21,579 nt of DNA. It comes from a virus. The stretch spans positions 1-21,579 of IMG/VR virus record IMGVR_UViG_3300001242_000100, one strand, 5' to 3'. The translations under genes and the position numbers were made by a program. The notes beneath the pieces are model-generated. The model saw nothing but the letters and a program-made list of their open reading frames with translations. It ran no database searches and was not told the DNA's origin. Of this stretch, positions 1 through 20,765 are shown piece after piece. Each line of letters starts with the position of its first letter. Position 1 is the first letter of the stretch.

Positions 1-266
1 TTTCGTAGGTGTTCCACAAATGCGCCTACCACATCACGCAGCGTTTCCATTTTCGCAATGAAATCGTCCAGTGAATCAGTTTCAGCCTTATGCAGCCTAA
101 TCTTGCTATGGCAATCGGATATTTCCAAAATAGTCATAACTTCTTTCTTACCTTTACGGGTCCAAGGTGCCACACCATGATAAGCCACAACTGCACCAGT
201 AGATGGATGCCCGTGAGGGTTTAACCACTGCCTATTTGAGTACCCGGCTCCTTTATCTTTTGCCAC
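1..266 (-). CDS. Conserved phage hypothetical protein, partial (3' end beyond left edge)
   Basis: The frame is open from a GTG at 264-266 to the window edge, giving 88 codons with the C-terminus missing. The GTG is preceded by GAGG with a 7-nt spacer and lies inside the 3' end of the next gene upstream, so it is probably translationally coupled. Visible residues include WLNPHGHPSTGAVVAYHG near the N-terminus and a central DCHSKIRLHKAETDSLDDF stretch. The combination of a WLNP..STG start with a DCH..RLH block resembles small proteins I have seen in other phages, but I know of no assigned function. No signal peptide or membrane segment is visible. Confidence 0.7.
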   Translation of the reverse strand, partial: MAKDKGAGYSNRQWLNPHGHPSTGAVVAYHGVAPWTRKGKKEVMTILEISDCHSKIRLHKAETDSLDDFIAKMETLRDVVGAFVEHLR

Positions 267-1796: not shown

Positions 1797-3152
1797 CTAG
1801 AATGCCAGATCTTCAAATTTACAAACATCAAACCTTCTCAACAATTTAAACGGTTTAAGGGCCGGCTCGTTAGGTACTGACTGAAAATTCCTAAAAGCTT
1901 TGTATGCCACTGTAGACGTTCCTGCTTCCTTGTCGCCATTTTCCTGTTTGAGGATAAGGCATAGATCGCAGTCCGCAATTATTCCTCCACCCCACCTAAT
2001 CTTATCTTCTTTTTCGTCTAACTGCACTGGTGTTATAATCCTGCAGTCGTTGTTTCTGGCGAACGTTTTAAGGTCTCTACTTCTAGCCAGAAGGTATTCC
2101 CATGATGCTAATGTTTTGTCTCCACCTCCCCTCGGAACTAACGAGATATAGTCTAGTACAAACGTTCGGACATTCTTCATGTCCACCATCATCTGCATGT
2201 AAAGGAATAATTTGTCCCAAGACCCAGGCTTGTCTGGTATAAAGAATCTATTTTTCTTAGGGGCAAAATGATCCCAGAACAAAGGCCACCACTTGTCGGC
2301 ATCTTCATTCTTAGTCTGCTCAATGAAATCTTTCATGTTAGGATTAAAATCACACAAATGACGGACTTCGGCCTCTCGCAGGGCTAGCCGCTGTTCATTT
2401 GTTAGCATATTACTGGTTATTAGCCCAACATTAATTTCACTTTTAGATGCAAGTATCCTCATCTTAACTTCTGTCTGACTCATCTCGTAAGAGATGTAAC
2501 AAGAAGACCCTTCATAATTTTCATGCCCGTAGGTTAGAAACTGTAGAGCTAGTAGCGATTTACCAGCTTTACTAGGAGCACCTACTAATGTTAAACTTTT
2601 TTCTGCAAAAGGACCATGCATATCTAGCGAAGTCAGCCCAGACTTTCTGAAATTGTACTGGACGCTCTTACCAGCAAGGCGGACCATATCACCAGAATCT
2701 AGGTTATCTCCAGCCCCATGTTGGAACATACTTTCGTACATCTCTTTCATAACAGCCACCGCGTTGTCTTCGTCCCGCTTGTCCACTGAGTCTACTAGCT
2801 TTCCAGCGCCGTCTAGTATGCACCTAAACTGATACTGAGTATGTAGTTTTTTAATTAGATCATCCGTGGTGATGCCTGATGTGTCCTTGGCTTTTATGTC
2901 TGAAATAAGATCTACGTAGAATCTCTGCTTGTCTGGGTTGGCTACCCTGTTTGTAATCTCCATCTTTAGAACGTCCCACCCAGGAAGTTGATAATGGGTA
3001 GTAAAATGAGTGCCTATGATGGTGTATATGTTCTGAAGCTCTTTGTTTCCGAATAGCTCTGTAGGAACTGCCATCAATAATTCTGGAGATTTCGATTCTA
3101 CTATTTTTTTCAGTATCAGCATCTCTGCTTGTGTATTTACTATTTTTGACAT
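1797..3152 (-). CDS. DnaB-family replicative DNA helicase (SF4)
   Basis: The 451-aa product has the two-part layout of phage replicative helicases: an all-helical N-terminal domain (about 1-145) and a RecA-like C-terminal domain. Visible motifs are Walker A GAPSKAGKS (191-199), the SYEMSQTEVKMRI segment (221-233) matching the SLEMs..ql..R block of DnaB, Walker B FVLDYIS (331-337) and a ITPVQLD (373-379) block matching the conserved Gln motif. It would be the hexameric ring helicase unwinding DNA at the phage fork. The gene starts behind AAGGAGCAACT and is the first gene after the leftward promoter at 3258-3286, with a leader of about 100 nt. No separate primase domain is visible in this protein. 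Confidence 0.9.
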   Translation of the reverse strand: MSKIVNTQAEMLILKKIVESKSPELLMAVPTELFGNKELQNIYTIIGTHFTTHYQLPGWDVLKMEITNRVANPDKQRFYVDLISDIKAKDTSGITTDDLIKKLHTQYQFRCILDGAGKLVDSVDKRDEDNAVAVMKEMYESMFQHGAGDNLDSGDMVRLAGKSVQYNFRKSGLTSLDMHGPFAEKSLTLVGAPSKAGKSLLALQFLTYGHENYEGSSCYISYEMSQTEVKMRILASKSEINVGLITSNMLTNEQRLALREAEVRHLCDFNPNMKDFIEQTKNEDADKWWPLFWDHFAPKKNRFFIPDKPGSWDKLFLYMQMMVDMKNVRTFVLDYISLVPRGGGDKTLASWEYLLARSRDLKTFARNNDCRIITPVQLDEKEDKIRWGGGIIADCDLCLILKQENGDKEAGTSTVAYKAFRNFQSVPNEPALKPFKLLRRFDVCKFEDLAF

Positions 3153-3257
3153 AGTTGCTCCTTACTGGCGTTTTTATGAGTTGTATATTTGATTGTGGAA
3201 TAAGTTGTAGTTAATTAACAGAATGGAGATGCAAGTGAATCATCAAAATGAAGGCGT

Positions 3258-3286
3258 ATTATACCACAGCAATTGATAAATGTCAA
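3258..3286 (-). promoter_or_regulatory. Leftward sigma70 promoter with consensus boxes
   Basis: On the minus strand TTGACA (3281-3286) and TATAAT (3258-3263) are separated by exactly 17 bp, and upstream is an A/T-rich UP-like stretch. It points into the helicase operon; transcription should start near 3251. The -10 is set in TGTGGTATAATAC, the same 13 bases as at the divergent promoter. Confidence 0.9.
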
Positions 3287-3374
3287 GCTTTATTTTTAAC
3301 TTTTTTGTGGTCAATACCACTTATTTTCGGGGAATATAAAATTATTTTTCAAAAAGTGAAAATAAAGCTTGACA
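3281..3374. repeat. 16-bp perfect inverted repeat carrying both -35 boxes, AT-rich centre
   Basis: TGTCAAGCTTTATTTT (3281-3296) is exactly repeated in inverse orientation as AAAATAAAGCTTGACA (3359-3374). The 62 bp between are very A/T rich and contain a smaller palindrome GTGGT-CAAT-ACCAC (3307-3320). The symmetry gives each promoter the same -35 and UP region and could be an operator, or an unwinding region for replication. Confidence 0.85.
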
Positions 3375-3397
3375 AAATCGCAAAAGTGTGGTATAAT
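3369..3397 (+). promoter_or_regulatory. Rightward sigma70 promoter with consensus boxes
   Basis: TTGACA (3369-3374), a 17-bp spacer and TATAAT (3392-3397) on the plus strand, set in TGTGGTATAATAC. It is the only convincing plus-strand promoter in a window where all genes read leftward. The start site should be near 3404, giving RNA antisense to the gene at 3488-3748. Confidence 0.85.
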
Positions 3398-3403
3398 ACA
3401 ATC

Positions 3404-3517
3404 TTCGAGCCAAAGCGAAGAAGATTGCTAATAGGTTGGTTTTAAGGTTTACTGTTTATAGCCTTTTCTTTTACCTTTACCCTGTGTCTACCCCGCCCGA
3501 AGGGCGGGAGGCGTTTT
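3404..3517 (+). ncRNA. Predicted short plus-strand RNA (antisense/sRNA)
   Basis: Starting from the consensus rightward promoter, a transcript of about 110 nt would end at a GC-rich hairpin followed by TTTT. Its 5' end can fold (AATCTTC at 3400-3406 pairs with GAAGATT at 3420-3426, or CTTCG with CGAAG), and no open frame with a ribosome binding site lies within it. The 3' end overlaps the coding end of the gene at 3488 in antisense. It does not look like a tRNA: no T-loop GTTCGANTC-like sequence is present. Existence is inferred from promoter and hairpin only. Confidence 0.45.
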
Positions 3518-3748
3518 AATGAGAAATTTATCAATCTTAGCTTTATTCTCAAGTGTATCTATCAAGTCTTCACGGTCTTCTATAATACTACAAAGGTCGT
3601 AATTCTCTTCTTCAAGGTCTTCTATCTCTTCCCTCAACCTATCATTCTCATTTTCATTAAACTTTGAACGTTCATACTCACAAGTAACGCACATACTTCT
3701 AGGGCTTAGCTCATGTACTTCTCTATCGCATTGGTAGCATCGTTTCAT
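3488..3748 (-). CDS. Zinc-finger plus coiled-coil small protein
   Basis: The 86-aa product begins with a CYQC (C4, C7) and CVTC (C20, C23) pair, a typical four-Cys zinc ribbon, followed from about residue 28 to 70 by a strongly charged heptad-like segment rich in Glu, Leu and Asp (LREEIEDLEEENYDLCS), so a parallel coiled-coil dimer is likely. The start is behind AAGGAGGTAAA. The last codons lie in the GC hairpin at 3492-3508. It is the last gene before the promoter region. No function is recognised; a small DNA-binding or adaptor role is possible. Confidence 0.7.
   Translation of the reverse strand: MKRCYQCDREVHELSPRSMCVTCEYERSKFNENENDRLREEIEDLEEENYDLCSIIEDREDLIDTLENKAKIDKFLIKTPPALRAG
3492..3517 (+). 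terminator. GC hairpin with short T-run, rightward terminator candidate
   Basis: CCCGCCC (3492-3498) and GGGCGGG (3502-3508) form a seven-pair stem with a GAA loop, followed by AGGCGTTTT. The T-run is short and offset, so strength is uncertain. The same bases encode the PPALRAG C-terminus of the minus-strand gene ending at 3488. Confidence 0.45.
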
Positions 3749-8594: not shown

Positions 8595-9947
8595 TCACCC
8601 CCAACTGCACTCGCTTTTGTCAAATCTTTCCCTAACAAAAACGCAATGTCTCATGTTATTATCCGCCGTAATCTCTTTGTATATGACTTCAACAATAACC
8701 CCCACCATTTTCCCGCGTTTATGCCTTAGCCACATATCAAGACCAAGATCATCACCCCACCCACCCATTACTTTACCGGAGATGGTTCCATCTCCTACAA
8801 GCATGGTTCCTAGTGAGCCTTCGTTCTTCGTGCCTTTGGTTCCTTCAAAGCAATCTTCAACTCTAAGATCGGCGGTGTAGAATTCTTTAACTTTTATGTT
8901 AGAGTAGCTACGTTTAAACTGGTAAACATCTTCCTTATCTTTTACCATTATACCTTCTTCATTAGCAGCAACAGCTTCCTTGAACATTCTAACAATATCC
9001 TCTTTGTTGTATGCCAGCCTAGTCACTGACATTTGTATGCTTGGCAAGGGCCTGTCTAGTCTTTCGAATAACCCTGTCAGCTCAGTCTTCCTATACTTAA
9101 GAGGCTTGCATGTGCCATTAGTACCTTGTGTAAGAAAATAGTCATAGTCAATTATATCCCATACCTTGTAGCCCAAGCAGTCACGCATCTCTTTGTCGGG
9201 ATAGGTTCCTTGTTTGGATTTAGCCATAGACAGCCCCTGAGCAAACTGCCAATTTTTACCGGCGTCGTAGTTCTTTTTTGCAGTTTTGCAGTTAGGGTTG
9301 TATTTAATACCTATCGCCTCACCGTCAAGAACAAACTTAGTTCCGGGGCGGAGTTGCATAATCTGAGGAATAAGGTGATCTAGTGTAAGTATTTCAAGAC
9401 CTTCTCTAGAAAAGAATCGAACAGTCTCTCCGTCGCATATCGCAATTACCCTGAAACCGTCGAACTTAATCTCAACTATAGCCGGATATTTAACTTTATC
9501 CCAATGCTGTTCTCCAGATTTAGGCTCAACCATAGGATGGGCCAGCATAACATCAAACACAGGAATTAGATTAGGAAAGGCTTTATTTATAGTGCTGGAG
9601 CTTACTCCGGCTTTAAGATCACGTTTGATTACTTTCGCTACCCACTCAGCTGATTCTTTAGTGCATTTAGCTAAGAGGCGTTTAATCATACCTCTAGCCT
9701 CTGTTGGGGTAGTTGTGTGCTTGGCTAACAGATCAAGCAGAAGGAAAAGCTCCTGTGATATGTCAGGCTGCACTACGTTGTACGCCACAGGCTCGTCCAA
9801 CTGCTGAACTCTATACGTCAAGTAAGGATTGTAGGTGTACCAGAGAAGCTTCTTTAGCGTCTCAGTTTCGTTCTTCCTTAATATTTCTTCTTTTCCATTC
9901 TTTGAGGCTTCTTTTGCCAGCAAAGATAATGTATTAAATTCTTTCAT
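8595..9947 (-). CDS. ATP-dependent DNA ligase (T4/T7-like)
   Basis: The 450-aa product has the nucleotidyltransferase motifs in order: motif I VEIKFDGFR (K161 the AMP-accepting lysine), motif Ia-like FFSREG (178-183), motif III LDGEAIG (207-213), motif IV EGIMVKD (331-337) and motif V IKVKEF (351-356), followed by an OB-fold domain. The N-terminal helical region has KRDLKAGVSSSTINKAFP and FDVMLAHP, matching T4-type ligases. It seals nicks in phage DNA at the fork and in repair. The start overlaps the stop of the EQTH gene upstream (TAATG) behind AAGGAG. Confidence 0.92.
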   Translation of the reverse strand: MKEFNTLSLLAKEASKNGKEEILRKNETETLKKLLWYTYNPYLTYRVQQLDEPVAYNVVQPDISQELFLLLDLLAKHTTTPTEARGMIKRLLAKCTKESAEWVAKVIKRDLKAGVSSSTINKAFPNLIPVFDVMLAHPMVEPKSGEQHWDKVKYPAIVEIKFDGFRVIAICDGETVRFFSREGLEILTLDHLIPQIMQLRPGTKFVLDGEAIGIKYNPNCKTAKKNYDAGKNWQFAQGLSMAKSKQGTYPDKEMRDCLGYKVWDIIDYDYFLTQGTNGTCKPLKYRKTELTGLFERLDRPLPSIQMSVTRLAYNKEDIVRMFKEAVAANEEGIMVKDKEDVYQFKRSYSNIKVKEFYTADLRVEDCFEGTKGTKNEGSLGTMLVGDGTISGKVMGGWGDDLGLDMWLRHKRGKMVGVIVEVIYKEITADNNMRHCVFVRERFDKSECSWG

Positions 9948-10297
9948 TATTTCTCCTTGAAGTACTCGTTGTATTGCTCAACTGCTTCTTTTATGGCTGG
10001 CCAGAACTCTTGTGGTATAGGGTACTCTACGCGCTTATCCCAATCTGAGATTCCATTAACGTATAGCTCTGCTCCGTTACTACGCTCAATGAAATGGTCT
10101 AGAGGGCCTTCCAGTTCCTCGTCATAAGGAGAGTCTATTCCATCAGATACTAAATCTATAACCCCCTTATACGTGGCACAAGAGAACCTACTAATACCGT
10201 CACCAAAAGTAGCCCCTATATTAGTTTGCTCCAGCACTGTAACATAGGCCAGGTTTTTGTCATCAGACAGCCTAGCCCTAACCTTTAAATGCTTCAT
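9947..10297 (-). CDS. EQTH-family paralogue 2
   Basis: The 116-aa product begins MKHLKVRARL, has the strand YVTVLEQTNIGATFGDGISRF (EQTN variant of EQTH, FGD kept) and ends in WPAIKEAVEQYNEYFKEK, the family helix. The middle is longer and acidic (DSPYDEELEGPLD). Its ATG follows AAGAGGTGATAG and overlaps the preceding gene by four bases; it in turn overlaps the ligase start by one. Codon use is like its neighbours (ATA, CTA and AGA present). Function unknown. Confidence 0.8.
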   Translation of the reverse strand: MKHLKVRARLSDDKNLAYVTVLEQTNIGATFGDGISRFSCATYKGVIDLVSDGIDSPYDEELEGPLDHFIERSNGAELYVNGISDWDKRVEYPIPQEFWPAIKEAVEQYNEYFKEK

Positions 10298-11496: not shown

Positions 11497-11500
11497 TCAA
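11472..11500 (-). promoter_or_regulatory. Leftward sigma70 promoter upstream of RHH gene
   Basis: Minus-strand TTGACT (11495-11500), 17-bp spacer, TATAAT (11472-11477). Start expected near 11465, giving a leader of about 20 nt before the RHH ATG. The -35 lies at the very end of the upstream EQTH gene. Confidence 0.8.
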
Positions 11501-11853
11501 GCATAAAATGCGTTATATGCTAAAATGGCGTCCTTTATTTGTGGCCAGGCTTTTACGGGTATTCTTAAAACGAAGGTGTCACGTTCTAGGTCATCATGTC
11601 CTTTTAGAAAAACAAGGTAACGAGCCGGTGAGGCGAACTTTACCCCTCTAGAGTAGGTTTCAAGTTTGCCTAAATCTACAAACTCCATAAAACTCCATGA
11701 TAGTAGCACTACTTCGCCATACTGGAAGTACGATGCATACGTGGCGCCTTTTGTAGCAAAATCTGCCCCTATGTGACTCTGCTCTACTATTCTTAACTCA
11801 GCTACATTAGTGTTTTTTTCAAGAATAGAAGCAACAACCTTTATATGTTTCAT
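11497..11853 (-). CDS. EQTH-family paralogue 3
   Basis: The 118-aa product starts MKHIKVVASIL and contains AELRIVEQSHIGADFA (EQSH variant) and the C-terminal WPQIKDAILAYNAFYA. Its middle, YLVFLKGHDDLERDTFVLRI, closely matches paralogue 10 (YYVFLKG....EDNFELSI), so the two form a subgroup. The ATG is behind AAGGAGTGACTT, where the preceding gene's GAG-TGA stop forms the ribosome binding site. Its last bases carry the -35 of the RHH promoter. Function unknown. Confidence 0.8.
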   Translation of the reverse strand: MKHIKVVASILEKNTNVAELRIVEQSHIGADFATKGATYASYFQYGEVVLLSWSFMEFVDLGKLETYSRGVKFASPARYLVFLKGHDDLERDTFVLRIPVKAWPQIKDAILAYNAFYA

Positions 11854-11856
11854 AAG

Positions 11857-12153
11857 TCACTCCTTGAAGTGTTCGTTGTATGCCAGTACGGCTTCTTTAA
11901 ATCTAGCGTACTCGCCAATAGGAAGTAGTATGGGGTTTAGGTCACTTGCTCTTTGCCTTCCGCGCACCCATACCTGGTTGTCACGGCCTTTACAAGGAAG
12001 CACAGAACTGCTTAGCACACACCCATTGTGGATAAAGTCCCTGTTTTCTGTGCCAAACTCCTCCTCAATGTGAGTCTGTTCAGTTATTACTACACTAACC
12101 TCTTTGTACGAGGGCGGAATTAATTCCGCCCTATACTTGATATGCTTGTACAT
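11857..12153 (-). CDS. EQTH-family paralogue 4
   Basis: The 98-aa product is the shortest intact member: MYKHIKYRAELIPPSYKEV, VVITEQTHIEEEFGTE with the full EQTH and FG, GCVLSSSVLP, a VWVRG strand and FKEAVLAYNEHFKE. Because it has little beyond the shared elements it approximates the minimal domain. The ATG is behind AAAGGAGTATAGGT. It is followed after 3 bp by paralogue 3, suggesting tandem duplication. Function unknown. Confidence 0.85.
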   Translation of the reverse strand: MYKHIKYRAELIPPSYKEVSVVITEQTHIEEEFGTENRDFIHNGCVLSSSVLPCKGRDNQVWVRGRQRASDLNPILLPIGEYARFKEAVLAYNEHFKE

Positions 12154-17127: not shown

Positions 17128-17553
17128 TTACTTCCACCCCTTCTCTTCAAGTAGCCGTCTGAAGCGCGCTGCTTGTTCTTTTGCTTCAATAACTAGCTTG
17201 GCTTCTTCTACTTCCCGCGCAGCAATCGCTTCGTCGGTAAAGTAGGTGTTGTACTTTTTTACTGCTATTTTTAGCTTCTTCCAGCCATCTGCGTGAATAA
17301 CACAGGACCTAGACGGATGCCCTACTGGTGCGTTTAGTAAGTCTCTAGACAGCACCCTAAACTCAGCACCAGTAGTTGGGCCTGGTCGGCCATACGAAGA
17401 GCTGGCAAGTCTGAACTTTGTAGTAGATATAAATCTTCGACTTTTATCTCCGAAATCTACGTAAGCGTGCGTCTGCTCCAGTATAGTTACTCTACAAAGT
17501 TCGAAATTATGCTCCGGGAGTAATTCTCCTTTAATCTTAATGTGCTTTGCCAT
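17128..17553 (-). CDS. EQTH-family paralogue 5, with coiled-coil tail
   Basis: The 141-aa product starts MAKHIKIKGELLPEH, contains CRVTILEQTHAYVDFGDKSR with intact EQTH and FGD, and LKIAVKKYNTYF as the family helix. Unlike the others it then continues for about 30 residues as a charged helix (AAREVEEAKLVIEAKEQAAR) ending in RRLLEEKGWK, a likely coiled coil. The ATG is behind GGGAGGTTC. A strong hairpin lies upstream, between it and paralogue 6. Function unknown. Confidence 0.82.
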   Translation of the reverse strand: MAKHIKIKGELLPEHNFELCRVTILEQTHAYVDFGDKSRRFISTTKFRLASSSYGRPGPTTGAEFRVLSRDLLNAPVGHPSRSCVIHADGWKKLKIAVKKYNTYFTDEAIAAREVEEAKLVIEAKEQAARFRRLLEEKGWK

Positions 17554-17613: not shown

Positions 17614-17958
17614 TTACCCGATAATTACCGTGCATACATCCGCTTTTTTCGGAGCCGGTGCAGGCACACATGCGAAGTACTTGTTATAGGCTTCGACAGC
17701 GGCTTTGAATTTGGCGTAGGTGGTTATGGGCATGGTGAGGGTGTAGTTGTTGCGGTAGGCGTTGTGGCCGCGAACAAAAACTTTATTGGCACCATCTACC
17801 TCAGGGTAAGCTGCGCTAGCAATGGTAAACCCACAGTGGGTAAACCTATCACTGCAGTCCCCGAAGTTGCTGTTAATATGAGTTTGCGAAAGGATCTGAA
17901 CTTTTACAGTCTGGAAATCAGGAGCCACCGGGGTTACTTTACACGTAATTTTTTTCAT
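17614..17958 (-). CDS. EQTH-family paralogue 6, with ADxCxVIxG tail
   Basis: The 114-aa product starts MKKITCKVTPVAPDF, then VKVQILSQTHINSNFGD (SQTH variant), a FVRG strand and FKAAVEAYNKYF. After this comes an Ala/Pro linker (CVPAPAPKK) and the C-terminal ADVCTVIIG, a motif shared with paralogues 7 and 8. Codon use is richer in C-ending codons than in most neighbours. ATG is behind AAGGAGGAAAATTA. It is bracketed by two GC hairpins. Function unknown; the tail may be a docking peptide. Confidence 0.82.
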   Translation of the reverse strand: MKKITCKVTPVAPDFQTVKVQILSQTHINSNFGDCSDRFTHCGFTIASAAYPEVDGANKVFVRGHNAYRNNYTLTMPITTYAKFKAAVEAYNKYFACVPAPAPKKADVCTVIIG

Positions 17959-18016: not shown

Positions 18017-18367
18017 TTAGCCGACGATTACAGCACACGCATCAGCTTTGGGAGCCGGTGGAGCACAGACAGCGTTTACACGGTTGTACTCTTTGACCGC
18101 CTCAACAACTTTCGCCCACAGCTTTTTGCCAACAACGACGGTGTTTCCGTTTTTGGCAGCGTCGGACCCACGGAGCCAGATGGTGTTATTGTCATCTTTG
18201 TCACGGGCGGGGTGCTTGTTGGAACCGAGGACGATTCCGTTGGAAGCGCGGAACTTGTTGCTGTAGCCCTTACCGAAGGCGTATCCGGTGTGGGTCTGCT
18301 CGGTAACATTAAACATGACCTTATTGTAGTTCGGGTTCACCACGGCCTGAAGTATAACTTTTTTCAT
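18017..18367 (-). CDS. EQTH-family paralogue 7, codon-optimised, ADxCxVIxG tail
   Basis: The 116-aa product starts MKKVILQAVVNP, has FNVTEQTHTGYAFGKG, then ASNGIVLGSNKHPARDKDDN and IWLRG, nearly identical in layout to paralogue 8, and VVEAVKEYN. It ends in an Ala/Pro linker and ADACAVIVG. Nearly all Asn, Lys, Gly, Thr and Ile codons end in C or are otherwise of the preferred type, and rare AGA/CTA codons are avoided, in contrast to most genes here, which suggests strong expression. The ATG is behind AAAGGAGGAATTCTC. Gaps on both sides hold GC hairpins. Function unknown. Confidence 0.83.
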   Translation of the reverse strand: MKKVILQAVVNPNYNKVMFNVTEQTHTGYAFGKGYSNKFRASNGIVLGSNKHPARDKDDNNTIWLRGSDAAKNGNTVVVGKKLWAKVVEAVKEYNRVNAVCAPPAPKADACAVIVG

Positions 18368-18487: not shown

Positions 18488-18889
18488 TTAGCCGATGATT
18501 ACAGCGCAGAAATCAGCAGGCTGTGCCGCAGGCTTACGCGGTGCCGGAGCCTTGGGAGCTGCATAGCAGCGAGGATCTGCGAAATCGAAGGCATTGTACT
18601 CTTTAACAGCAGCGACGATTTTTTCCCACTCAGCTTTGGTACATTCAACTGCGGAATCGTTGCTTTTCGCCTTGGAGCCACGCAGCCAGATAACGTTCTT
18701 CTCATCTGTGTCGCGTGCCGGGTGGCTGTTGGAAGCAAGAACGATGCCGTTGCTGGCAACGAACTTACGGGGGTCAAGGCTCCGCACGTCACCGAAGTCG
18801 CGTCCTTTGTGTGTCTGCTCCAGCACTTTAAAGAGCACCTTCGTAAAGTTGGGAACGACTTGTGCGGTAATCTTGATGTGTTTTCTCAT
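18488..18889 (-). CDS. EQTH-family paralogue 8, codon-optimised, ADxCxVIxG tail
   Basis: The frame is open to 18931, but AAAGGAGG lies eight bases before the ATG at 18887-18889, giving MRKHIKITAQVV and 133 aa. It has FKVLEQTHKGRDFGD, ASNGIVLASNSHPARDTDEK, VIWLRG and IVAAVKEYNAF, then a longer Ala/Pro/Lys linker (APKAPAPRKPAAQ) and ADFCAVIIG. It is the closest relative of paralogue 7 and shares its biased, C-ending codon use. A dispersed palindrome copy lies 14-20 bp upstream of its ribosome binding site. Function unknown; abundance is inferred from codons. Confidence 0.83.
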   Translation of the reverse strand: MRKHIKITAQVVPNFTKVLFKVLEQTHKGRDFGDVRSLDPRKFVASNGIVLASNSHPARDTDEKNVIWLRGSKAKSNDSAVECTKAEWEKIVAAVKEYNAFDFADPRCYAAPKAPAPRKPAAQPADFCAVIIG

Positions 18890-18922
18890 GGTAAATCCTC
18901 CTTTTGTTTGTATGCTGTTTAG

Positions 18923-18938
18923 GTAGAACAAGTTCTAC
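18923..18938. repeat. Dispersed palindrome copy 6 (GTAGAACAAGTTCTAC)
   Basis: Arms GTAGAA/TTCTAC, centre CAAG (18 bp with flanking G/C), between the stop of paralogue 9 and the ribosome binding site of paralogue 8. Its centre is the reverse complement of copies 1 and 5. Confidence 0.8.
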
Positions 18939-20443: not shown

Positions 20444-20765
20444 TTAATCTTTGAAATACTCGTTGTATTCGTTAACCGCAGCTACTACCTCAGGCCAACG
20501 CGCAAATGGAATTGACAGTTCGAAGTTATCTTCGTTTTTGTTATCTCCTTTGAGGAAAACATAATAGTGCTCACCTTCAAGAAAAGCCTCCGGCCTTCCC
20601 AAATCACTCATTAATATGACTAGATTCGATGCCTTAAATTGATCTTCATATGCTCGGTCTTCGTAGGCACACCCGAACTCTTTATACACATGGGTCTGCT
20701 CTATTATTCTGACGCGCATTCTATCACCTTCGTCAGGCTTAGCTATCAGGCTTAATGTGCTTCAT
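20444..20765 (-). CDS. EQTH-family paralogue 10, frameshifted near the start
   Basis: ATG at 20763-20765, six bases after GGAGG, opens MKHIK, the family start, but that frame stops at TAA 20739-20741. Skipping one C at 20749-20750 continues as LIAKPDEGDRMRVRIIEQTH, exactly what the family alignment predicts, through VYKEFG, VFLKG and WPEVVAAVNEYNEYFKD. Either the gene has a one-base insertion or it uses a +1 frameshift. An internal ATG at 20717-20719, after AAGGTGATAGA, could yield a 91-aa protein lacking the first strand. A 9-bp direct repeat TCAGGCTTA (20733-20741, 20746-20754) surrounds the site. It is closest to paralogue 3. Confidence 0.75.

Follow-up and report, generated by a model that had tools for sequence, protein, structure and literature searches.

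The stretch of viral DNA analysed here (the window, 21,579 nucleotides in full) carries two perfect sigma70 promoters that point away from each other upstream of a dnaB-like gene. Our best explanation, to which we give a probability of roughly 0.55, is that they form a divergent early pair, in which the leftward member would provide the mRNA for DnaB and other replication proteins and the rightward member a structured small RNA, encoded in several copies. Host RNA polymerase would take both promoters upon entry of the DNA, transcribing dnaB and the replication genes that follow from the leftward one, and an untranslated RNA of ~110 nt with two or three stem-loops from the rightward one. This RNA would end before running far into the opposing genes, at a GC-rich hairpin (in the window and in a second copy at 55 kb of the parent contig) or by the action of Rho at a C-rich stretch (in the related contigs G003 and G006), and, if it acts in trans, would most likely bind a host protein or a host RNA.

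All the bases of the window are identical to positions 32,881-54,459 of a 113,294-base IMG/VR contig, G001. By its gene content this contig is a T5-like phage, a distant relative of phage T5 of E. coli: the large terminase (TerL) finds its best matches in Demerecviridae, at ~30% identity, the family-A DNA polymerase is best matched by Vibrio T5-like phages, further genes of T5 type encode a DnaB-like helicase, NrdD and a nuclease-like protein, and genes for a DNA ligase and a Thy1-like protein are also present. The early genes of G001 run leftward, and the structural genes rightward from ~92.5 kb. A leftward direction had been described earlier for all genes of the window, and this holds for the likely genes around the site. 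No named phage with a close DNA match of more than 2 kb was found for the window, and a tRNA search of the window gave no hit. The minus strand also encodes, between 7695 and 20719, about 10 paralogous small proteins with a motif like V-x-I-x-E-Q-T-H-x-x-x-x-F-G (for example at 9947-10297, 11497-11853, 11857-12153, 17128-17553, 17614-17958, 18017-18367, 18488-18931 and 20444-20719), of which additional copies are present in the rest of the 113-kb contig.

The leftward promoter (3258..3286, minus strand) has its -35 box TTGACA at 3286-3281 and a TG-extended -10 box TATAAT at 3263-3258, and faces dnaB. The rightward promoter (3369..3397, plus strand) is built in the same way, with TTGACA at 3369-3374 and a TG-extended TATAAT at 3392-3397. 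Both match the sigma70 consensus at 12 of 12 positions with a 17-nt spacer, in agreement with the preliminary description, which had reported exact TTGACA-17-TATAAT for the two. Its claims of an identical -10 context and of a 16-bp repeat shared over the UP/-35 region were also confirmed, the 13-mer TGTGGTATAATAC being common to both -10 boxes and the 16-mer AAAATAAAGCTTGACA to both UP/-35 regions (3281..3296, minus strand, and 3359..3374, plus strand), exactly in each case. With a Markov model of order 1, the expected number of exact TTGACA-16..18-TATAAT sites in a sequence of the window's length is 0.007 for both strands together, compared to the two found. The match to consensus supports the view that both promoters are ordinary in kind, i.e. 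strong promoters of the host sigma70 type such as T5-like phages use early. Early and replication genes of a T5-like phage lie ahead of the leftward promoter; the rightward one is not so placed.

The mirror symmetry of the pair had been taken to suggest duplication by inversion or joint control, a reading that the complete contig and its relatives do not support. G001 has 8 perfect promoters, and 12 with at least 11 of 12 matches together with the conserved context. Promoters at 79085, 84906, 85186 and 87459, of both directions, are preceded by the UP/-35 module that the window pair shares, and the whole 29-mer of the rightward promoter is repeated without change at G001:79085. As judged from these repeats, both window promoters are copies of one early-promoter cassette, of which the contig has roughly 12, in both orientations. 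The symmetry arises because two copies of the cassette stand in opposite directions, and since the 16-mer belongs to this dispersed cassette, it is not unique to the pair and no pair-specific operator is needed. A divergent pair controlled by an operator was rejected on the same grounds, the 16-mer being dispersed rather than specific to the pair and the promoters lying apart in the related contigs G002 and G003; no tight mirror pair was found in the relatives. The same cassette was detected by blastn before genes or tRNAs of other phages, where the matches may perhaps be due in part to convergence on the sigma70 consensus. As a separate observation, the other viral contigs L053, L067, L082, L085, L097 and L127 each carry several consensus promoters with a GC-rich hairpin within a few bases, in a layout that is roughly TATAAT-NGNAAATTCG-stem-loop, and these units are a possible second promoter-hairpin family.

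The first gene downstream of the leftward promoter is that of the DnaB-like replicative helicase (1797..3152, minus strand; Pfam DnaB_C 2.4e-14, PHROG 19 1.2e-37). The sequence between promoter and start codon (3153..3251, minus strand) is expected to form an unstructured, 100-nt 5' leader of the dnaB mRNA (fold z = +1.25). What stands behind leftward promoters of G001 are ribosome-binding sites, genes or tRNAs.

The rightward promoter had been described as unexplained by any gene. The absence of a gene was verified, as no likely rightward gene lies behind it in the window, whereas it can no longer be called unexplained, because it reads into a non-coding structured unit. The first part of this unit, H1, starts 1 nt past the -10 box and is an inverted repeat with a GA/GAA internal loop (3399..3427, plus strand; z = -4.3), of the form CAATCTTC-GA-GC-CAAA-GC-GAA-GAAGATTG. 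It is followed by H2, a second stem region with the core ATAGGTTGGTTTTAAGG (3431..3485, plus strand) that is weak in the window copy and strong in the 55-kb copy, and by H3, a GC-rich hairpin CCCGCCC-GAA-GGGCGGG (3492..3508, plus strand) with TTTT 5 nt later (3514-3517). H3 is likely a terminator, though an imperfect one, as AGGCG stands between the hairpin and four T only, which makes a poor intrinsic terminator. From the promoter and the hairpins we infer a short non-coding transcript with its ends at 3404 and 3517 (plus strand), the start being assumed 7 nt after the -10 box.

This RNA is probably non-coding, and no ORF conserved between copies of the element was found. A small rightward protein was considered because of a GGAGG followed by an ATG at 3519, which opens a 27-codon frame in the window. 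The frame is not conserved in the 55-kb copy, which reads ATG AGA ATG TAG, and the candidate was therefore rejected. On the minus strand, a small ORF of 86 aa (3488..3748; PHROG 35568) overlaps H3 with its 3' end, tail-to-tail. Searches against Rfam gave no match at the gathering score in the window, where only chance matches appeared at a loose E-value, and only tRNAs in the whole 113-kb contig.

The element stands behind four rightward promoters of G001, at 36249 (3369 of the window), 55315, 79085 and 92340, with gene-less sequence behind each. In these four copies, the inverted repeat begins 0-4 nt after the -10 box, and the first 40 nt fold with -11.4 to -19.7 kcal/mol, compared to -0.1 to -6.5 kcal/mol behind the other eight promoters and a background with mean -5.0 and sd 3.2 kcal/mol. 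H1 reads GCATTCATC-GA-GCC-GTTA-GGC-GAA-GATGAATGC at 55 and 92 kb and GCATATCTT..AAGATATGC at 79 kb. The succession of a stem of at least 7, GA, an inner stem, GAA and the returning stem occurs three times in the 113 kb, both strands included, always directly behind these promoters. Three stems are predicted for the 55-kb copy (z = -6.6); the second has 18 bp and a 2-nt bulge, the third is GC-rich. The second stem is also present in the 79-kb copy (z = -3.3), whereas in the window copy (z = -2.6) it is weak and comes with the same third stem (H3) as in the 55-kb copy, so that two stem-loops near the 5' end are predicted for the 55-kb and 79-kb copies and are weak in the window. The H3 region is 93.8% identical over 64 nt between the window and 55-kb copies. 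The 55-kb copy adjoins a gene (G001:55498-57033) for a phage protein that resembles, by eye, nicotinamide phosphoribosyltransferase and has many relatives in viral contigs.

Three related contigs, G002 (64 kb), G003 (59 kb) and G006 (106 kb), have dozens of genes in common with G001 at roughly 25-74% identity; their dnaB homologues are 45% (G002, G006) and 38% (G003) identical to that of G001 by tblastn. The comparison with related phages that the preliminary description had proposed came out in its favour, as a consensus promoter upstream of dnaB is kept in G002, G006 and G003. In all three, this promoter belongs to the same family and points away from dnaB, against the genes, and behind it come a hairpin or hairpin-like 5' end, a core and a C-rich, G-poor tail. 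The core, TATAGACT-N-TAAGGTT, is common to elements of G002, G003 and G006 and is found nowhere else in those contigs. The sites that face dnaB in G002 and G003 are weaker (TTGACA-18-TATAGT and TATACT, as read by eye), and the two promoters lie apart there, with an endonuclease-like gene inserted nearby, located between dnaB and the element at G002:35240-36355 and G003:11056-12063. Two more copies of the element were found in G006 (3451 and 18948) and one in G009, all with the GA/GAA hairpin and another arm sequence, AGTC/GACT. In the copies upstream of dnaB in G002 and G003, H1 does not have the GA/GAA form, and the G003 stretch folds no better than shuffled sequences (z = +0.7). The elements of G001 are repeated in G005, a contig from a near-identical strain.

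Since MAFFT alignments (A2, A4 and A5) misalign arms of unequal length, the pairing of H1 was compared by hand. The arms vary while the pairing is kept in CAATCTTC, GCATTCATC, GCATATCTT and the AGTC of the relatives, which are four arm sequences, all self-complementary, drawn from few independent sequences. Within the sample compared, which is one phage clade represented by few related samples, the position, orientation and design of the element are conserved while the arms change with pairing kept. It could be argued that these are ordinary consensus promoters only, and that hairpins and conservation are by-products of recent cassette copying among related phages, as recent shared stretches of 85-94% identity do exist between the 55-kb and 92-kb copies and between the window and 55-kb copies. 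We regard this as distinctly improbable, because the arms differ and yet pair, the hairpins stand only behind the four rightward promoters, and the element stays upstream of dnaB though DnaB has diverged to 38-46% identity.

The tails of three elements in the relatives are within the top 0.04-0.2% of windows for C-rich, G-poor composition, and they would fit Rho-dependent ends where a hairpin terminator is missing. As no such tail is present in the window and 55-kb copies, Rho is proposed for those three elements alone. A short transcript with a terminator, from a promoter that upstream of dnaB and in most other places points against the genes, could also belong to a cis-acting insulator, in which the rightward promoter and its terminator would collide with or block leftward read-through from early genes further upstream and leave dnaB under the control of its own promoter, the RNA itself having no job. 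Such an insulator appears unlikely, since it accounts neither for the kept pairing of the arms and the conserved RNA core nor for the copies at the boundary of early and structural genes (G001:92340, G006:3451 and G009:9454).

The place of the transcription start bears on whether the element works as RNA or as DNA. Transcription usually starts on the seventh base past the -10 box. In the window this base is 3404, within the 5' arm of H1. The canonical start falls inside this arm in the forms at 55 kb and 79 kb as well, and immediately after it in the G006 form. Most of the arm would therefore be left out of the RNA, and H1 may act partly as DNA. Either initiation takes place unusually near the -10 box, or it is as DNA that the outer arms of H1 are important, in the form of a hairpin in the melted or displaced strand. 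The outer arm precedes the canonical start, whereas H2 and H3 lie downstream of it, inside the inferred transcript, so that any role of theirs must be played at the RNA level.

An inverted repeat that spans the start site and could act as DNA would also suit a transcript-primed replication origin, in which the rightward promoter melts the DNA, its RNA primes synthesis, hairpins formed by the inverted repeats in the displaced single strand assist in loading the helicase encoded by the neighbouring gene, and the four copies serve as several origins. The AT-rich intergenic places of several dispersed copies and the position of the element next to dnaB in three phage lineages agree with this, and T5 itself reportedly replicates from several origins. 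H2 and the conserved core, with their RNA-like features, lie fully downstream of the start, and the RNA tails are C-rich, whereas G-rich ones are expected for stable R-loops; an origin is thus an unlikely explanation in our judgement.

We return to a structured RNA as the preferred product of the rightward promoter. Several strong promoters for one type of RNA suggest that the product is needed in quantity, hence a role in trans, and trans action is also suggested by the conserved structure and core in combination with these promoters. That the RNA acts in trans early in infection is nevertheless a proposal to which we give somewhat less than even chances. The two stem-loops predicted near the 5' end of a putative early transcript with a strong promoter also recall the put RNA of phage HK022, a two-stem element of ~70 nt with which an early sigma70 transcript begins; putL occupies the same position and is of roughly equal size (PMC9378689). 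The stem-loops could, as in HK022, bind the transcribing RNA polymerase so that it ignores pauses and terminators, and the transcript at G001:92340 does point toward structural genes. At the dnaB-upstream and most other sites, however, the promoter has no gene to read, and the strong hairpin or the C-rich tails behind the element would be pointless under read-through, which makes this reading very improbable.

Beyond the clade, the promoter-plus-hairpin pattern was absent from 84,980 bacterial and archaeal genomes, and a scan of all viral contigs for the hairpin pattern gave only unrelated hairpins, some of them intergenic. No GAG..GAA hairpins were found in T5 (first 120 kb) or in Vibrio phage phi 3. 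In L282, L287, L291, L292, L293 and L295, intergenic hairpins with a TC-GA-GC..GC-GAA-GA core were observed, none of them following a consensus promoter; hairpins with the GA/GAA loop seem to be stable and in general use.

Strong phage promoters that face no gene are usually passed over. Here, such a promoter marks a repeated, conserved and structured element, which several T5-like lineages keep beside the gene for the replicative helicase. Should the RNA be made, it would probably be among the most abundant early transcripts, and would offer a direct way into the handling of host transcription or the start of replication in such phages. A published description of the element was not found in the literature searched, and we file the rightward unit, as a candidate defined by its sequence, under phage non-coding RNA units with their own strong promoter. 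More tentatively, and with considerable doubt, it may represent a new multi-copy element, made up of a consensus promoter and, joined to it, an inverted repeat that spans its start and runs into a structured non-coding early RNA; this would be a dedicated early device (a host-factor-binding RNA or a transcript-primed origin) of several T5-like phages, with a similar form in unrelated Vibrio phages.

The similar form is that of the Vibrio Zobellviridae phages 172P1 (L316 1207-1560), 275E43-1 (L317 1200-1480) and 1.293.O (L319 600-880), where the same cassette stands back to back, one promoter leading to the first early gene and the second into a gene-poor, long, C-rich and G-poor stretch that starts with a short hairpin. 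As these pairs belong to another phage family and have another hairpin sequence, the likeness is one of layout and homology is not implied.

T5, placed in the same phage group by TerL (~30% identity) and the set of replication genes, also has strong host sigma70 promoters, some of them tied to the repeat blocks a, b and c of its record (PMC7472727), and putative early promoters are annotated up to T5P38 in record AY587007. In the stretches of that record examined, early promoters and genes are oriented alike, unlike the rightward promoter here, and none is annotated directly before the helicase-like ORF110. The put RNA of HK022, likened here by layout and not by sequence, serves the genes behind it, whereas the present element is directed mostly against genes and its RNA seems to stop at once. 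Finally, like the phage-encoded small RNAs reviewed in PMC12197685, the predicted RNA is short and non-coding, here with its own promoter; unlike them, it has no Rfam match and is encoded in four dispersed copies per genome, each with a consensus promoter and an inverted repeat that spans the start.
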